Source: Sulfuritalea sp. (lineage in GTDB: Bacteria > Pseudomonadota > Gammaproteobacteria > Burkholderiales > Rhodocyclaceae). Taken from it: a DNA stretch of 64,000 bases. Position 1 is the first letter of the stretch, and each line of letters starts with the position of its first letter. Positions 1-7,246 of this stretch are shown piece by piece. Made by a program: the position numbers and the translations under genes. The notes below the pieces were generated by a model, which saw nothing but the letters and a program-made list of their open reading frames with translations, was not told the DNA's origin and searched no databases. The stretch spans positions 104,913-168,912 of the forward strand of contig NZ_JAFLDR010000003.1 in the NCBI RefSeq assembly GCF_017302275.1. Reading direction: 5' to 3'.

Positions 1-5
1 TGCCA

Positions 6-33
6 CCGGCCGCCGCGATACCGGGGCGGCCGG
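6..33 (-). terminator. GC-rich hairpin after the selenoprotein gene
   Basis: A 9-bp perfect stem (CCGGCCGCC pairing with GGCGGCCGG) with a 10-base loop lies directly downstream of the stop codon of the minus-strand thioredoxin-fold gene. A trailing T run, if present, would lie outside the window, so an intrinsic terminator is only a likely reading. Confidence 0.35.
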
Positions 34-38
34 CAATG

Positions 39-542
39 TCAGCTCTTCTGCGCCTTCCTGAAGGCGGCGAAATCACCACCCTTCAGGTAATGTTTCTCGG
101 CCACGTAACGGTCGAGCAGCAGCGCGTCGTCGACGGTCTTTAGCCCGCCGGTCAAGCGCGCAACCTCCTTGCCCGCGCCGTCGAGGAAGACCAGCACCGG
201 CCGCAGCTTGCGCGGATTGTGGCGCTTGACCATCGCGTGCAGCGGGTCCTTGTCGTCGAGTTCCAGCTCGCCGAAATCGGCATGGGCGCCGAGGAAATGC
301 TTCGAGTATTTCGCGGTGACTTCGGGCTTCTTGAGCACACTCACGGTGTAGCGACAAGCCCCTCAGTTCAAATGATCGCCGAAGTACAGCATGACGTGGC
401 GGTCGGGCTGCTGCTTCGCCGCCGCCAGCGCGGCGTGGTCATCGGCATGCAAGGGCAGCACGCCGTCGAGATGGTCCGCCGCGGCCGGCAGGCTGAAGGC
501 AGCGGCGCAAAGAAATGCGAGCAGGGCAAGCAGGCGCTTCAT
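39..542 (-). CDS. Exported thioredoxin-fold selenoprotein with a UxxC active site (TGA at 363-365 read as Sec)
   Basis: Seen: translation from the ATG at 540-542 (AGGAG 5 bases upstream) gives a signal peptide (MKRLLALLAFLCAAAFS, cleavage near residue 22), then LYFGDHLN, an in-frame TGA at 363-365, then GACRYTVSVLKKPEV and about 90 more residues in the same frame. Reading TGA as selenocysteine gives 167 residues with U60-G-A-C63, in the place of the CxxC of thioredoxins, just after the usual Y-F-G strand end. No frameshift is needed. A SECIS-like hairpin starts right after the TGA. The later GTG at 342-344 could start only a fragment lacking the first strand and half the active site, so a separate gene is unlikely. 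Known: UxxC thioredoxin-like selenoproteins exist in bacteria, and this window also holds a selenocysteine formate dehydrogenase. Inferred: a periplasmic thiol-disulfide or peroxide-type oxidoreductase. The alternative is a nonsense-mutated pseudogene. The gene lies downstream of fdhE on the same strand. Confidence 0.8.
324..362 (-). promoter_or_regulatory. Candidate bacterial SECIS element of the thioredoxin-fold gene
   Basis: Read on the minus strand from the base after TGA. An outer stem GGGCTT (361-356) pairs with AAGCCC (329-324). An inner hairpin has GC (352-351), a bulged T (350), ACAC (349-346), a five-base loop CGTGA (345-341), then GTGT (340-337) and GC (336-335). Counting the T of TGA as 1, the bulged U is 16 and the loop GU is 22-23. 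The E. coli fdhF SECIS needs a bulged U17 and loop G23-U24, so the design is the same with one base less. The neighbouring fdnG SECIS has the same layout. Confidence 0.7.
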
Positions 543-644
543 GGGTTCTCCTTGGGACGAGGTTACTGGCAGACAGTGTAGGCTGAAGTTTGGTTCCGTG
601 AAATGCCTCGGGGTTCCGTCCGCGGGTAAGCGATGAAACGAAAT

Positions 645-674: not shown

Positions 675-1601
675 TCAGCCCCCGGGCACCAGCAGCAGAT
701 TGGGCCCGCTGCGCGAATAGCCGGCTTCGTCGACCAGGATGTCGAGCGCCAGGGTGGCGAGGTCGTCGGCCACCGGATCGACGGGTGCCTTCTCGGCATA
801 CACGATCTTCAGGTAGCTCTTGCAGGCCTCGCAGGTTTCGGCGCGCACCGCGTCTGGCCCGGGCTGGCCGGTCCCGGTTTCGAGGTAACGGTAACCGATG
901 CCTTCGGTGGCGTCACAGGCGGAGCACTTGACGCGCACGAGGTTCCACTCGGTGTTGCACAAGGCGCAGTGCAGGTAGCGCAGGTTGCCGACCTCGCCGG
1001 CGCCGCGCACCACGCTGGCCACGGGCAGGAAGCCGCAACAGGGGCAGACGCCGGGCACGTCGAGCGCGACAATCTCGGCAACGCCGAGGCGGGCAGCGCC
1101 GGCTGTCCAGAGCACCTGCAGGGCGGCGCCGACATAAGGCAGCAAGGCGGCATCCGGCCCGTAGAGCTCGGTATGCAGCACGCGCTCGGCCAGGGCTTCG
1201 ATCCGCTCGGCATCGTAGGCGGCAAGCCGCGCCAGATCATCGCGCGCCATGTCCGGCGCGTCGCGGGCCACGGCGGCGACAATCAGGGAAAGGCTGTCGC
1301 GCCAGGCGGCGGAACGCGGCCAGGATTGTGCCGGCAGGGGCGGCATGCGGTGTTCGCGCGCCACGCCCATGCGTGCCGCATCCGGCAAATCCAGCGCGGG
1401 CATGGCCTGCAGGGCCAGGTGCTGGGCGCGGCTGATGGCACCGAGGAAGCGCAGCCAGTCGCCCAGGCTGTGGCCGTCGGCGAGTTGCTCGAAGCGCAGT
1501 GCGCGCTGGCTGAAAAGTGTCGCGGGGTCGGGCGCGATGACGTGGGGCGGCTCGCTGCTCGACTTGATGGGAATGATCGGGGCTTGGAAAGTGGCGCTCA
1601 T
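675..1601 (-). CDS. fdhE: Formate dehydrogenase accessory protein FdhE
   Basis: 308 residues from the ATG at 1599-1601. The C-terminal half carries four CxxC pairs (CPCC, CALC, CSAC, CEAC), the rubredoxin-like iron-binding arrangement of FdhE, within recognisable family sequence around HCALCNTEWN and CEACKSYLKI. FdhE is a cytoplasmic protein needed to make active respiratory formate dehydrogenases; it interacts with the catalytic subunit before export. It is the fourth gene of the fdnGHI operon on the minus strand, separated from fdnI by 83 bases that hold a strong hairpin, so its expression may be lower than that of the structural genes. Length matches the E. coli protein (309 residues). Confidence 0.93.
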   Translation of the reverse strand: MSATFQAPIIPIKSSSEPPHVIAPDPATLFSQRALRFEQLADGHSLGDWLRFLGAISRAQHLALQAMPALDLPDAARMGVAREHRMPPLPAQSWPRSAAWRDSLSLIVAAVARDAPDMARDDLARLAAYDAERIEALAERVLHTELYGPDAALLPYVGAALQVLWTAGAARLGVAEIVALDVPGVCPCCGFLPVASVVRGAGEVGNLRYLHCALCNTEWNLVRVKCSACDATEGIGYRYLETGTGQPGPDAVRAETCEACKSYLKIVYAEKAPVDPVADDLATLALDILVDEAGYSRSGPNLLLVPGG

Positions 1602-1684: not shown

Positions 1685-2308
1685 TCAGGACTTGCCGGTG
1701 ACCTGACGGTACCAGGCGCGGTGATGCTGCTTGGCCCAGGCGCGGGTGACCGTGCCATAGACCATCGCCCGCACCGTGCCGCGAACCCAGAGCGCGGCAT
1801 AGACATGGACGAAGATCATCGCGATCATGATCGCGGCGACCGCCGAATGCACCACCGCGCCCAGGCGCACCACATCCACCGGCAGGTTGAAGTAGGCGCG
1901 CCACAGGAAGACGCCGGAAACGAACAGGAGCAGCATGCACAGCGCCATGGCCCAGAACATCGCCTTCTGCCCGCCGTTGTACTTGCCCTGTTCCGGCATG
2001 TTGTGGTCGTTGCCGCTGACCATCTCGCCGGCCCGCGAGAGCCATTCCTTGTCCGCCGGCGTCATCACGTTGAGCGACTTGAAGCGGAAGAACATCACCA
2101 GGAAGGCCAGCGCCATGAGAACGCCGAGGAAGGGGTGCAGGATGCGCGCCCAGACCCCGCCGCCGAAGAGCTGCGTCAGTGGATAAAAGGCCGGATGGAA
2201 GAAGGCCAGGCCGGACAGCGCGAGCAGGATGAAGCAGATGCCGACGAGCCAGTGATTGGCCCGCTCCTGCGCGTCGTAGCGCGTGAGGTCTTTCGGATTG
2301 CGGATCAT
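1685..2308 (-). CDS. fdnI: Formate dehydrogenase cytochrome b556 subunit (gamma)
   Basis: 207 residues with four hydrophobic segments (about 20-40, 58-76, 112-132, 150-172). Histidines suited to haem b ligation are visible in H19-W (RANHW), H58 (ILHPF) and in the fourth helix (VVHSAV and MIFVHVYAAL). This is the quinone-reducing, membrane-anchoring subunit of formate dehydrogenase N/O. It takes electrons from the Fe-S subunit fdnH and reduces quinone. The start has GGAGG 8 bases upstream. A 118-base spacer with a GC-rich hairpin separates it from fdnH, unusually long for this operon. Confidence 0.93.
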   Translation of the reverse strand: MIRNPKDLTRYDAQERANHWLVGICFILLALSGLAFFHPAFYPLTQLFGGGVWARILHPFLGVLMALAFLVMFFRFKSLNVMTPADKEWLSRAGEMVSGNDHNMPEQGKYNGGQKAMFWAMALCMLLLFVSGVFLWRAYFNLPVDVVRLGAVVHSAVAAIMIAMIFVHVYAALWVRGTVRAMVYGTVTRAWAKQHHRAWYRQVTGKS

Positions 2309-2426: not shown

Positions 2427-3311
2427 TCATTTCTCCTCCTTCTCCAGTTCGTCCTCAAGCTCCTTGCTGACCTCGTTCGGACCCTTCATCACGTAGTGGA
2501 ACAGGCTGCCCAATGCCACGGCAGCCATGGCCACAGTGGCCACCGGCTTGGCGATGCCCTTCCACAACGACACCAGCGGACTGATACTGGGATTGTTGGG
2601 CAGGCCCTTGTAGAGCTCCGGCCGGTCGGCGTGGTGCAGCACGTACATGACGTGCGTGCCGCCCACCCCTGCCGGATCATAGAGCCCCGCCTTGTCGTAG
2701 CCGCGCATCTTCAGGTCGACCACTCGCTTCGCCGCGTAATCCTTCATCTGCTCCTTGGAGCCAAACTGGATCGCACCGGTCGGGCAGACCTTGGCGCAGG
2801 CCGGCGCCTGGCCGACGGCGACGCGGTCGGAACACAGCGAGCACTTGTAGGCCTTGTTGTCTTCCTGCGAGATGCGCGGGATGTTGAAGGGACAGCCGGT
2901 GATGCAATAGCCGCAGCCGATGCAGTTTTCCTGGTGGAAATCGACGATGCCGTTGGCGTACTGGATGATGGCGCCGGGGGCCGGGCAGGCCTTGAGGCAG
3001 CCCGGATCGGCGCAATGCATGCAGCCGTCCTTGCGGATCAGCCACTCCAGCTTGCCCTTTTCCTCGACTTCGGCGAAGCGCATCACGGTCCACGACTTGG
3101 CCGTCAGGTCGATCGGGTTGTCGTAGACGCCGTGGTTGACGCCGACCTCGTCGCGAATGTCGTTCCATTCCATGCAGGCCGCCTGGCAGGCCTTGCAGCC
3201 GATGCAGGTGGACACGTCGATCAGCTTGGCCACTTCCGTGGTCTGCCGGACGCCGGGTGCCGGTGTGGTCGTCGCCGAGCGGCGGGCGATATCTAGCGAT
3301 TGCAATGCCAT
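2427..3311 (-). CDS. fdnH: Formate dehydrogenase iron-sulfur subunit (beta)
   Basis: 294 residues. Four cysteine clusters fit four [4Fe-4S] centres: [11 protein letters not shown] near residue 36, [13 protein letters not shown] near 97, [11 protein letters not shown] near 128 and CSLC with CAKVC near 155-175. A single C-terminal membrane helix (about 248-272) anchors it, as in E. coli FdnH (294 residues). It carries electrons from the molybdenum or tungsten site in fdnG to the cytochrome fdnI. It begins 12 bases after the fdnG stop with GGGGGA as ribosome binding site, so the two genes are translationally close. Confidence 0.96.
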
Positions 3312-3323
3312 GTCATATCCCCC

Positions 3324-6300
3324 TTAGATCTTCTCGATGTTGACCAGGAACGCCTTGTATTCTGGCGTCTGGCAATTGGCGTCGCCGACGAACGGCGTCA
3401 GCGTGTTGGTGATGAAGCCCGGCTTGGTGACCCCCTTGAAGCCCCAGTGGATCGGAATGCCCACGGTGTGCACCTTCTTGCCGTCGACGTCGAGCGTCTT
3501 GATCCGCTTGGTGACCACGGCCACGGCCTTGATGAAGCCGCGGTTGCTGCGCACCTTGACCTTGTCGCCGGTGGCAATGCCCTTCTCCTGCGCCAGTTGC
3601 TCGCTGATCTCGACGAACTGGTCGGGTTGCAGCACGGCATTGATCATCGAGTGCTTGGTCCAGTAATGGAAGTGCTCGACGAGGCGGTAGGTAGTGGCCA
3701 CGTAGGGGAAGTCCTTCGCCTTGCCGAAGGTTTCCATGTCGCCCTTGAACACCCGTGCCGCCGGATTGCTGATGGCCTTGGGGTTGTTGGGATGGAAAGG
3801 ATTCTTGTCCAGCGGCGTCTCGAAGGGCTCGTAATGCTCGGGGAAGGGACCGTCGGCCATGGCCGGCGCGAAAAGCCGCGCCACGCCTTCCGGGGTCATG
3901 ATGAAGGGCATCACCCCCTCGTCGGGTGCCGCGTCGGGCCGCATGTCTGGCACGTCGTTGCCGCCCCAGGCCGTGCCGGTCCACTTGATCACCGTGCGCT
4001 TCGGGTCCCACGGCTTGCCGGAAAGGTCGCAACTGGCACGGTTGTAGAGGATGCGCCGGTTGGCCGGCCAGGCGAAGCCCCAGTTCAGCGATTGGCCCAG
4101 CCCGGTGGGGTCGGAGTTGTCGCGCCGCGCCGTGAGGTTGCCCGCCTGCGACCAGCAGCCGCCGTAGATCCAGTTGCCGCAGGACGTGCTGCCATCGTCC
4201 CGCAGTTGCGCGAAGCCGGCCACCTGCTCGCCGGCCTTGACGATGACCTTGGTCTTGTCCTTGGGATCGAAGACGTCGCCCAGCGCCTTGCCGGAAATCT
4301 CCATGAGGAGTTCCGCCGGCGACGGCTTGGCCGGGATGCGGTAGGGCCAGGTCAGGTTCATGATCGGCTCGGGCAGCTTGCCGCCGTCCTTGGCATACAT
4401 CGCCCTGAGCTTGAGGAACAGCGCCGCCAGGATCTCGATGTCGCCCTTCGACTCACCGGGACCGTCGGCCGCCTTCCAGTGCCACTGGATGACGCGACCG
4501 GAGCTGGTGAAGCTGGCCGTCTCTTCGGCGAAGAGGTTGGCCGGCAGGCGGAATACCTCGGTCGCGACCTTGGTCGGGTCGACCTCGTTGAACTCGCCGT
4601 GCGGCTTCCAGAACTCCGAGGTATCGGTGGCCAGCGGATCGATGACGACCAGGAACTTGAGCTTGGCCAGCGCATCGGCCACCTTCTTCTTGTTCGCCAC
4701 CGAGGCCAGCGGGTTGAAGCCCTGGCAGAAGAAGCCGTTCATCTTGCCCTGGTGCATGCGCTCGAACATCGCCAGCACGTCGTAGGCACCATCCTTCTTC
4801 GGCAGCCAGTCGTAGCCGTAGTCGTTCTTGTCGGTCGCCGCCGCCCCGTACCAGGCCTTCTGCAGGCTGGTGAACCACTTCGGGAAGTTCTGCGGGAAGT
4901 TCATCTGGTTCGGCCGCAGCGGTTTCGGCGTACGCTTTTCCAGATAGGTCTTGCGATCGACGTCGGCATCGGTCGGCGCCGACAGGTAGCCGGGCAGTAC
5001 TTCCGAATACAGGCACATGTCGGTGATGCCCTGCACGTTGGCGTGGCCGCGCAGCGCGTTGATGCCGCCGCCCGCCATGCCCATGTTGCCGAGCAGGAGC
5101 TGGATCAGGGCCATGGTGCGAATGTTCTGCGAGCCGACCGAATGCTCGGTCCAGCCCAGCGCATAACAGATCGTCATGGTCTTGTCGGGTGCCGCCGTCT
5201 CCGCGATCATTTCGCAGATCTTGAGGAAGGCGTCCTGCGGCGTGCCGGTGGTCTTGCTCACCAACTCGGGCGTGTAGCGGCTGTAGTGCTTCTTCAGCAA
5301 CTGGAAGACGCAGTTCGGGCTTTCCAGGGTCGGATCGACCATGGCGAAGCCGTCCTTGCCGATCTGGTACTTCCAGGTGTCCTTGCCATAGCTGCGCTTC
5401 TCGGCGTTGTAGCCGGAGAACAGGCCGTCCTCGAACTTGAAGCCCTCGTCGATCAGGAAGGCGGCGTTGGTGTAGTTCTTGACGTACTCGTGATGGATCT
5501 TGTCCTTCGACAGCAGGTAGTTGATGACGCCGCCGAGGAAGGCGATGTCGGAACCGGCGCGAATCGGCGCGTAGAAGTCGGAAACGGCGGCCGAGCGCGT
5601 GAAGCGCGGGTCGACCACGATCAGCCGGGCCTTGCGGTCCTTCTTCGCTTCGATGACCCACTTGAAACCGCAGGGATGCGCTTCGGCGGCATTGCCGCCC
5701 ATGACGATCACCAGGTCCGAATTCTTCAGATCGACCCAGTGATTGGTCATTGCACCACGCCCAAATGTCGGACCCAGACTGGATACCGTGGGGGCGTGTC
5801 AAATACGTGCTTGCGTGTCGAGTGCGACGACTCCGAGGTTGCGCAGGATCTTGCTGGTGAGGTAGCCGGCTTCATTGCCGGCGGCCGACGAGGCGAGGAA
5901 ACCGGTGGTGTTCCAGCGGTTGACGGTCACGCCGTCGGCATTCTTCTCGATCAGGTTGGCGTCGCGGTCCTTCTTGACGTGGGCCGCGATGCGGTTGATC
6001 GCGTCATCCCAGGAGATGCGCTTCCACTCGTTGCTGCCGGCTTCGCGCACTTCGGGAAACTTGAGCCGGTTCGGGCTCTTGACCATGTCCATCAGGCCGG
6101 CACCCTTGGGGCACAGCGTACCGCGATTCACGGGATTGTCCGGATCGCCCTCGATGTGGATGATGTCCGCTTTCGCGTTCTTGGACTTGTCGCCCGTGGT
6201 GTAGATCAGGACCCCGCAACTGACCGAGCAGTAGGGGCACATGTTGCGGGTTTCCGTGGCGTGGGCCAGCTTGTAGCTGCGCACCTCCGCCAGGGCCGAT

Positions 6301-6386
6301 GTGGGCGAGAATCCCATCAAAGCAATGGATGACCCGCTCATGCCGGCGCCGCAGATCTTGAAGAACTGCCGCCGTGAGACTTGCAT
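3324..6386 (-). CDS. fdnG: Formate dehydrogenase catalytic subunit, selenocysteine at residue 196 (TGA at 5799-5801)
   Basis: Start ATG at 6384-6386 follows AAGGAGGAG. The protein opens with a twin-arginine signal (SRRQFFK), so it is exported folded to the periplasm. Then comes an N-terminal [4Fe-4S] motif (CPYCSVSCGV) and the molybdopterin domains. The frame meets TGA after LDTQARI and continues HAPTVSSLGPTFGRGAMTNHW. This is the known Sec site of FDH-N, where E. coli also has Sec at 196. With the TGA read through, the protein has 1020 residues against 1015 in E. coli FdnG. The enzyme oxidises formate to CO2 with a bis-MGD Mo/W cofactor, and the Sec ligates the metal. It leads the operon fdnGHI-fdhE. 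Gene finders that stop at TGA will split it in two. Confidence 0.96.
5756..5798 (-). promoter_or_regulatory. SECIS element of fdnG
   Basis: Directly after the TGA, CACGCCC (5798-5792) pairs with GGGCGTG (5762-5756). Inside, CGG (5788-5786), a bulged T (5785), ATCC (5784-5781), loop AGTCT (5780-5776), GGGT (5775-5772) and CCG (5771-5769) form the apical hairpin. Counted from the T of TGA, the bulged U is 17 and the loop GU is 23-24, exactly the positions required by SelB in E. coli fdhF. Confidence 0.88.
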
Positions 6387-6568: not shown

Positions 6569-7246
6569 TCAGCCGCCGGCGGCGAAGCGCTTTTCGATCT
6601 CGGCCGCCGGTATGTAGCCACCGACACGCTCGCCGCCGGCAAAGAAGATAGCCGGCGTACCGTTGATGCGCAGCTTGCCGCCCAGTTGCGCGGACTTGTT
6701 CAGACCGGAGGTGTCGCACTTGCCCGACGCCGCGGGCGGCGCCTTGTTGGCAGTCATCCAGTCGACCCAGGCCTTGGCCTTGTCCGGCGCACACCAAATG
6801 GCCTTCGATTTTTCGTAGGAATCGTCGCCCAGCACCGGCAGCAGGAAGGTGTACACGGTCACGTCCTTCAGCGTCAGCACGTCCTTCGCCAGCTTCTTGC
6901 AATAACCGCAGTTGGGATCCTCGAAAGTGACCATTACGTTCTTGCCGTTGCCGCGAACCTGCTTGAGCGCCAGATCCAGCGGCAGCGCGTTGAACTGCCG
7001 CTCGGCAGTGATGTTCCGGCCGGTCTTCATGTCGAGCAGGTTGCCGAAGATCAGGTATGACGCCTTGTCGTCTACATAAAAGATCTGGCTATCCACGGTT
7101 ACCTCCCACAATCCCGGCATGGGGGCCTTGACCAACTTTTCGACCTTGCCCAGCTTGGCTTCGGCGGCCTTTCTCACATCGGACTCGTCGGCGATGGCGG
7201 CGAGGGACACGCAGGCCAGGGCGGCTGCAAGCAGGGACGGTTTCAT
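6569..7246 (-). CDS. dsbC: Periplasmic disulfide isomerase DsbC
   Basis: 225 residues with a Sec signal peptide (residues 1-19), a DsbC/G dimerisation domain (about 20-85) and a thioredoxin-fold domain whose active site is C113-G-Y-C116 in the context EDPNCGYCKK. A second cysteine pair (AIWCAPDK and SGKCDTSG) matches the structural disulfide of DsbC. The protein reshuffles wrong disulfides in periplasmic proteins and is kept reduced by DsbD. It is 20 bases downstream of the UbiH-type gene on the same strand, so the two are probably co-transcribed. Length is close to E. coli DsbC (236). Confidence 0.93.
   Translation of the reverse strand: MKPSLLAAALACVSLAAIADESDVRKAAEAKLGKVEKLVKAPMPGLWEVTVDSQIFYVDDKASYLIFGNLLDMKTGRNITAERQFNALPLDLALKQVRGNGKNVMVTFEDPNCGYCKKLAKDVLTLKDVTVYTFLLPVLGDDSYEKSKAIWCAPDKAKAWVDWMTANKAPPAASGKCDTSGLNKSAQLGGKLRINGTPAIFFAGGERVGGYIPAAEIEKRFAAGG

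Follow-up and report, generated by a model that had tools for sequence, protein, structure and literature searches.

A probable exported UxxC thioredoxin-fold selenoprotein encoded near fdhE and the sel genes in Sulfuritalea and its relatives

Proteins of the DsbG-like, DsbA-like and thiol:disulfide interchange types are usually exported. UxxC selenoproteins of all three types are listed in Table 1 of a 2026 selenoprotein inventory (PMC13188914), which contradicts the view, taken in a preliminary description of the locus studied here, that a periplasmic location is uncommon among UxxC proteins. As excerpted, the same inventory counts 119 selenoprotein families or subfamilies, many of them UxxC proteins of thioredoxin fold, and hence the kind of protein that we describe is already known; the entry that comes closest to it is the PF13098 'thiol:disulfide interchange protein' (PMC13188914). 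For the lineage concerned, the available portion of a 2006 paper gives fdhA beside selA-selB-selC as the only selenoprotein of the Alpha- and Betaproteobacteria and Pseudomonadales, and assigns 10 betaproteobacterial selenoproteins to a single family (PMC1794560). Sulfuritalea is placed by the NCBI taxonomy in the Betaproteobacteria, Nitrosomonadales, Sterolibacteriaceae.

Here we analysed a 64,000-nucleotide stretch of Sulfuritalea DNA (the window) and found at positions 39-542 a gene whose product is, with a probability of roughly 0.87, a selenoprotein of thioredoxin fold and thiol:disulfide-reductase type that is probably exported. That this is a real selenoprotein gene, taken as a claim by itself, we regard as close to certain. 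Together with its homologues it appears to form a new family of UxxC thioredoxin-fold selenoproteins, told apart from the PF13098 UxxC selenoproteins (representative WP_011366075.1) by the way in which these are described. A literature search combining selenoprotein or selenocysteine with Sulfuritalea or Rhodocyclaceae returned no paper; a prior mention in supplements or in papers beyond those covered is possible. Searching with Sterolibacteri- gave one soil study, in which the title and the beginning of the abstract do not name the protein, and no title or abstract beginning found for Burkholderiales or Betaproteobacteria names it; a term search of PMC12013277 gave no match.

An in-frame TGA shared by all close homologues

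The gene, its parts and its neighbours are listed in Table 1. We confirmed on the minus strand what the preliminary description had seen, namely a frame with one in-frame TGA at the place of the first cysteine of a CxxC motif that runs on to a normal end. Since the standard code splits the gene into two short frames, both present in the mechanical list of open reading frames, ordinary annotation can miss it, as had been supposed. The N-terminus is hydrophobic in 11 of the 11 rows of alignment A1; in the AlphaFold2 model it forms a helix (residues 2-15), followed by residues of low confidence (17-22, pLDDT <50).

Table 1. Positions in the window of the selenoprotein gene, its parts and adjoining genes
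Feature	Position	Strand	Remarks
3' end of convergent TM_HPP membrane protein gene	1..61	plus	Pfam scan; overlaps selenoprotein gene end at 39-61
UxxC thioredoxin-fold selenoprotein gene (predicted)	39..542	minus	167 residues; start ATG 542-540; stop TGA 41-39
SECIS-like stem-loop	324..362, core 335-352	minus	loop start 17 nt past TGA
In-frame TGA, predicted Sec60 of U60-G-A-C63	363..365	minus	TGA in 26/26 clade-1 sequences
Signal peptide region (putative, Sec-type), ~residues 1-23	474..542	minus	judged by eye
Ribosome-binding sequence AAGGAG	548..553	minus	read from sequence
fdhE, formate dehydrogenase accessory protein	675..1601	minus	Pfam FdhE_N, FdhE_central, FdhE_C; directly upstream
fdnI-like cytochrome b subunit of formate dehydrogenase	1685..2308	minus	named from sequence
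fdnH-like iron-sulfur subunit of formate dehydrogenase	2427..3311	minus	named from sequence
fdnG, Sec formate dehydrogenase large subunit	3324..6386	minus	Sec196 at TGA 5799-5801

Upon searching 395 genomes of the family with a profile, we obtained 25 with a close homologue, all of which carry TGA and none a cysteine codon at residue 60; one further match (G080) was distant and without a stop. A single-sequence query of 199 family genomes gave 8 genomes, the own genome included, at identities of at least 64% and with one TGA each. These close homologues form clade 1, for which we compiled 26 sequences: those of the 25 genomes and L033, a named MAG locus outside them. The other two of the three named MAG loci (L034 = L135 and L035 = L131) repeat genomes already counted, and an extra TAG in one of them (G1120, L035 = L131) is the normal gene end. 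In the codon alignment of the 26 sequences, TGA occupies a single column, in which every sequence has it, and occurs nowhere else, despite pairwise identities as low as 57%. The motif reads FGDHxN-U-GAC-RYTV, with variation between U and C (GA, SA, GT, PF), and the uncorrected pN/pS was 0.39 both before the TGA (mature part) and after it. The viral contigs searched held no relative of the protein.

A second UxxC clade, at 27-32% identity and likewise with TGA-x-x-Cys, was found in another family of the same order. It comprises four full-length copies (G454, G1190, G1193, G1174) and one from G1196 that a second TGA truncates (loci L150-L154; motifs UAGC, USQC, USLC, USAC and USGC). Among 74 genomes of the clade-2 family, four Sec copies (G1190, G1193, G1174, G1196) stand beside seven distant, stop-free matches. 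Wider searches gave 26 matches in 399 genomes of the order (E <=1e-12), with TGA in the own genome and G454 only, 39 in 369 genomes of the class and 3 in 398 genomes of the phylum (E <=1e-15), in both cases with TGA in the own genome only. Across the genomes drawn, we saw the Sec form in two families, both belonging to the same order.

The preliminary description had expected homologues to show cysteine or Sec at residue 60. This was borne out in both directions, with TGA in 25 of 25 close homologues and with the two motif positions both cysteine in all 80 tree rows of distant relatives without TGA; in the genomes searched no orthologue with Cys60 was found, the Cys form being that of distant relatives only. 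Our tree contained 30 Sec sequences and 80 Cys rows (of 83 Cys loci asked), the truncated L154 being left out. The Sec sequences, together with the long-branched Cys relative L069, grouped apart from the 79 others, and 76% of 200 bootstrap trees recovered the Sec sequences as a single group, a value with which one origin and two origins are both compatible. L069 itself (from G570, motif YFG-MSEF-CPPC) may be a Cys form or the nearest outgroup of the Sec clade.

The stem-loop and the selenocysteine machinery

As given in the excerpted text of PMC13188914, the rules for bSECIS elements are a loop of 3-9 nt with G in the first two loop positions, a stem of 4-16 bp, a distance of 16-37 nt from the UGA and an MFE of at most -7.5. 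The element that follows the TGA of our gene has a 5-nt loop, CGUGA (341-345), and a bulged U (350) below a 4-bp stem, the core reading GC, bulged U, ACAC, loop, GUGU, GC. Loop, stem and distance fit the published rules, and a pairing that conforms to them is possible at the same place in 26/26 clade-1 sequences, 24 of which have exactly the CGUGA loop, so the hairpin of suitable spacing in the preliminary description stands. We scanned 134 codon offsets from -150 to about +249 relative to the TGA, taking the best element at each, which tests the ability to pair. At a random offset, about 60% of the sequences held a rule-conforming element; as such elements are common by chance, only their shared place is telling, and this stem-loop was the only one of its type common to all 26, the next best offset reaching 73%.

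Folding and silent-site statistics were examined at the same place. In clade 1, the 45 bases from the TGA have energies of -9.8 to -24.7. Their single-sequence minimum-energy fold contains the core in 17 of the 26 sequences; another 7 show it in a shifted register, and the remaining two, L004 and L136, fold differently. Some sequences have a broken lower stem. The alignment has 41 columns in which the residue is invariant and its codon degenerate; in six of them the codon is invariant as well, and five of these six lie at codons +4 to +9 (Fisher p = 0.0018). The mean synonymous difference was 0.17 at codons +1 to +14 (12 columns) compared to 0.34 elsewhere (89 columns; p = 0.006). Relative to codon-shuffled controls, the folding energy had a mean z of -1.44 (31 sequences), with z >0 in 3/26 clade-1 sequences. 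Covariation in the stem was no greater than expected from shuffling, 79 of 500 shuffles reaching its level, a result that speaks neither for nor against pairing because the upper stem never varies. The Rfam SECIS models did not match the element even at E up to 10. A different stem-loop is found in clade 2, CUCUCC-GGC(or GGG)-GGAGAG in all five sequences, with the loop 33 nt after the UGA and within the published loop and spacing rules. In the window's fdnG, the Rfam model SECIS_3 matches at 5746-5804 (77.5 bits) and spans the TGA, in agreement with the earlier statement that this gene uses TGA and a SECIS.

The sel genes, suspected to lie just left of the window, were found there. With the window starting at contig position 104913, the gene for tRNA-Sec lies at 100627-100718 and that for SelB at 100764-102668, while SelA, identified by eye from its open reading frame and its place, lies between SelB and the window; SelD is encoded on another contig of the same genome. 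SelB exceeded the cut-off in 25/25 clade-1 and 5/5 clade-2 genomes, and tRNA-Sec scored 64.6 to 72 bits in all eight clade-1 genomes searched, compared to at most 47.7 bits, among the matches listed, in genomes without a strong tRNA-Sec. Five genomes of the same genus are without the gene, and four of them are also without SelB (G181, G1021, G1068, G1145), the last three being only 80-87% complete.

Some further observations concern the sel genes themselves. In G976, the fifth of these same-genus genomes, SelB is present (two SelB genes over the cut-off) but the selenoprotein was not found. SelD carries one in-frame TGA in 3 of 13 genomes searched (G454:C129:8959-9888, G126:C11:88563-89492, G114:C137:5445-6371), the best SelD of the other ten, the own genome's included, being without; this suggests that the lineage has another selenoprotein. 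Three genomes (G000:C8:38415-39338, G151:C1:53944-54867, G008:C16:32208-33128) have a second SelD-like domain within an open frame that is 758-989 residues long and that, we presume, could encode a dehydrogenase-SelD fusion.

Gene neighbourhood of the selenoprotein

Upstream of the gene lies the formate dehydrogenase locus of Table 1, in which we take two genes to be fdnI-like and fdnH-like; the N-terminus of FdnG is, by eye, twin-arginine-like. On the other side, beyond the TM_HPP gene and outside the window, follow selA, selB and the gene for tRNA-Sec. A gene just upstream of fdnG (6569-7246) encodes, as judged by eye, a thioredoxin-fold protein that resembles DsbC, has the motif CGYC and begins like a signal peptide.

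We compared this arrangement across 11 longer loci. In 10 of them, the selenoprotein gene precedes selA and selB and shares their strand, the exception being G008, in which the gene and selB are on different contigs. The place downstream of fdhE that the preliminary description had pointed out was found in 8 of the 11, with fdhE on the same strand, and in 7 a convergent HPP-type gene separates the selenoprotein gene from selA. Three of the longer loci (L058, L061, L063) gave no match to fdn or fdhE; two of these, from G001 and G126 (L058 and L063), have selA-selB but no fdn or fdhE match in the 18 kb covered. Among 26 short loci, which reach about 1.5 kb or less on each side except for L033, selA follows downstream on the same strand in 19, while 11 have fdhE upstream. 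As the gene of G114 (L062) is also upstream of selA on the same strand, 20 of 26 lie beside selA. In clade 2, the stretches covered held no fdn or sel match. Three genomes (G029, G124, G046) have SelB and the order fdn-fdhE-selA-selB without the selenoprotein gene.

The intervals from fdhE to the selenoprotein gene and from selA to selB hold different genes in different loci (Redoxin-family, transglutaminase-like, LysE), and Redoxin-family genes occur at the locus in L034 and L062. This variability weakens any functional inference from the neighbourhood. Between selA and selB, several relatives carry transglutaminase-like and Redoxin-family genes, recognized with Pfam in L057 (10481-11611) and L034 (6435-6977) and by eye in L060 and L064.

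Predicted fold, possible role and relation to known proteins

The AlphaFold2 model, built from an 11-row alignment, is thioredoxin-like (mean pLDDT 79.5; strand 49-54, helix 61-70) and would put the UxxC where the first active-site helix begins, the position of CxxC in relatives. Leading Foldseek matches in the PDB were a Helicobacter thioredoxin-fold protein (4fyb), a Xylella disulfide isomerase, DsbH and the DsbD C-terminal domain; the 19 matches at E <=0.001, which include one designed protein and one human AGR2, have TM-scores by query of 0.44-0.60 and identities of 14-26%. A 13-member profile matched the DsbH structure 2ju5 with E = 2.1e-5. Against Pfam PF13098 (Thioredoxin_2), the window protein scored 20.2 of 27 bits, below the gathering cut-off. 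NCBIfam release 20.0 (June 2026) gave no model at its curated cut-off and, for the window protein, none up to E = 1; the 13 members matched its models weakly, best seleno_TsoB with E = 0.0062 in four. Of the two activities named in the preliminary description, thiol oxidoreductase is supported, as the neighbours in sequence and fold are thiol:disulfide proteins (DsbH, the DsbD C-terminal domain and a DsbC-named Helicobacter protein), while peroxidase finds little support, Redoxin and AhpC-TSA each giving one weak match in the 13 members.

Were the TGA a true stop, the locus would hold a decayed gene or two short proteins, and the two frames of the open reading frame list, together with the decay that does occur in the G1196 copy, agree with such a reading. 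We nevertheless give it hardly any credence, as the same TGA persists in 26/26 sequences of such divergence with equal pN/pS on its two sides, and the predicted thioredoxin fold extends across the two halves. The conserved codon and the equal constraint lead us to reject the pseudogene, two-protein and sequencing-error readings; an error, which the preliminary description had asked about, is very unlikely because many separate genomes have this TGA in common. An ordinary amino acid, Cys or Trp, inserted at the TGA by a suppressor tRNA or by leaky readthrough would suit the cysteine of the distant relatives, but this too is very improbable given that none of the 26 + 5 copies has a Cys codon, that SelB is encoded in all 30 genomes carrying the gene, that most copies adjoin selA, and that the silent sites in the stem-loop are frozen. 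Judging from this conservation, UGA codon 60 would be decoded as Sec by SelA, SelB and tRNA-Sec, helped by the downstream stem-loop.

As to its role, the Foldseek neighbours and the DsbH profile match point to a thiol:disulfide reductase that is exported and uses a selenolate as nucleophile, most likely a periplasmic oxidoreductase of reductase type resembling DsbH or the DsbD C-terminal domain. The Sec60 selenolate would attack a disulfide or an oxidised (seleno)thiol, Cys63 would resolve the mixed selenylsulfide, and a membrane electron donor would re-reduce the protein. Less firmly than this reductase role, the fdhE-selA placement in most longer loci suggests service to the Sec formate dehydrogenase of the same locus. 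In its specific form, a dedicated periplasmic 'selenothioredoxin' that keeps FdnG reduced or aids its maturation, carried in an fdn-fdhE-selA-selB-selC transfer unit, we hold this to be improbable. The selenoprotein may instead act in general periplasmic redox control, its proximity to formate dehydrogenase merely reflecting a mobile sel cluster, to which we assign a chance a little short of even: the fdhE-selA placement argues against it, while the lack of a nearby fdn or fdhE match in G008, G001, G126 and clade 2, the fdn-sel loci without the gene and the other redox genes (Redoxin-family) at the locus in relatives argue for it. Membership in the listed PF13098 'thiol:disulfide interchange protein' selenoproteins (representative WP_011366075.1) would agree with the UxxC motif common to both (PMC13188914 Table 1) and with the PF13098 matches of 10/13 members at E <=0.1, which are weak (best 1.1e-7); among three Sec members scanned singly, two pass the cut-off (L149 with 27.6 and L153 with 30.8 bits) and L150 has no match. 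The sub-threshold score of the window protein speaks against such membership, as do the three carriers named in the excerpt of PMC1794560, which are Geobacter and Syntrophus species, and we consider it rather unlikely.

The reading that we favour, a UxxC selenoprotein of thiol:disulfide-reductase type, would add to the prokaryotic selenoproteome a family not named by the curated models used, and to the betaproteobacterial sel cluster a second selenoprotein cargo gene in many of these genomes. It also raises the question of whether one selenoprotein services a selenoenzyme in the periplasm, which would be the more exciting outcome if true.

Compared with known systems, the PF13098 'thiol:disulfide interchange protein' selenoproteins have in common with our protein a Thioredoxin_2-like domain (weak here), the UxxC and a basis in computational prediction only; their Geobacter and Syntrophus carriers (PMC1794560, as excerpted) differ from the Sulfuritalea group, in which the gene often lies beside fdhE and selA. 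Bacterial Sec-thioredoxin (PF00085) also combines UxxC with the thioredoxin fold, but PF00085 matched only 3/13 members (best E = 0.0045), and the 39-542 protein is probably exported. The best sequence relative with a structure, and also a fold match, is the disulfide reductase DsbH (NF043050, 2ju5), to whose model the 39-542 protein scores 11.6 of 190 bits (E = 0.21), far below the cut-off; DsbH has CxxC, in contrast to the UxxC and SECIS-like element seen here. Finally, the DsbD C-terminal domain (2fwg, 1vrs, 6dnu) matches in fold with 20-25% identity in the aligned part, but whereas that domain is part of a membrane electron transporter, the 39-542 gene would encode a free, small Sec protein.
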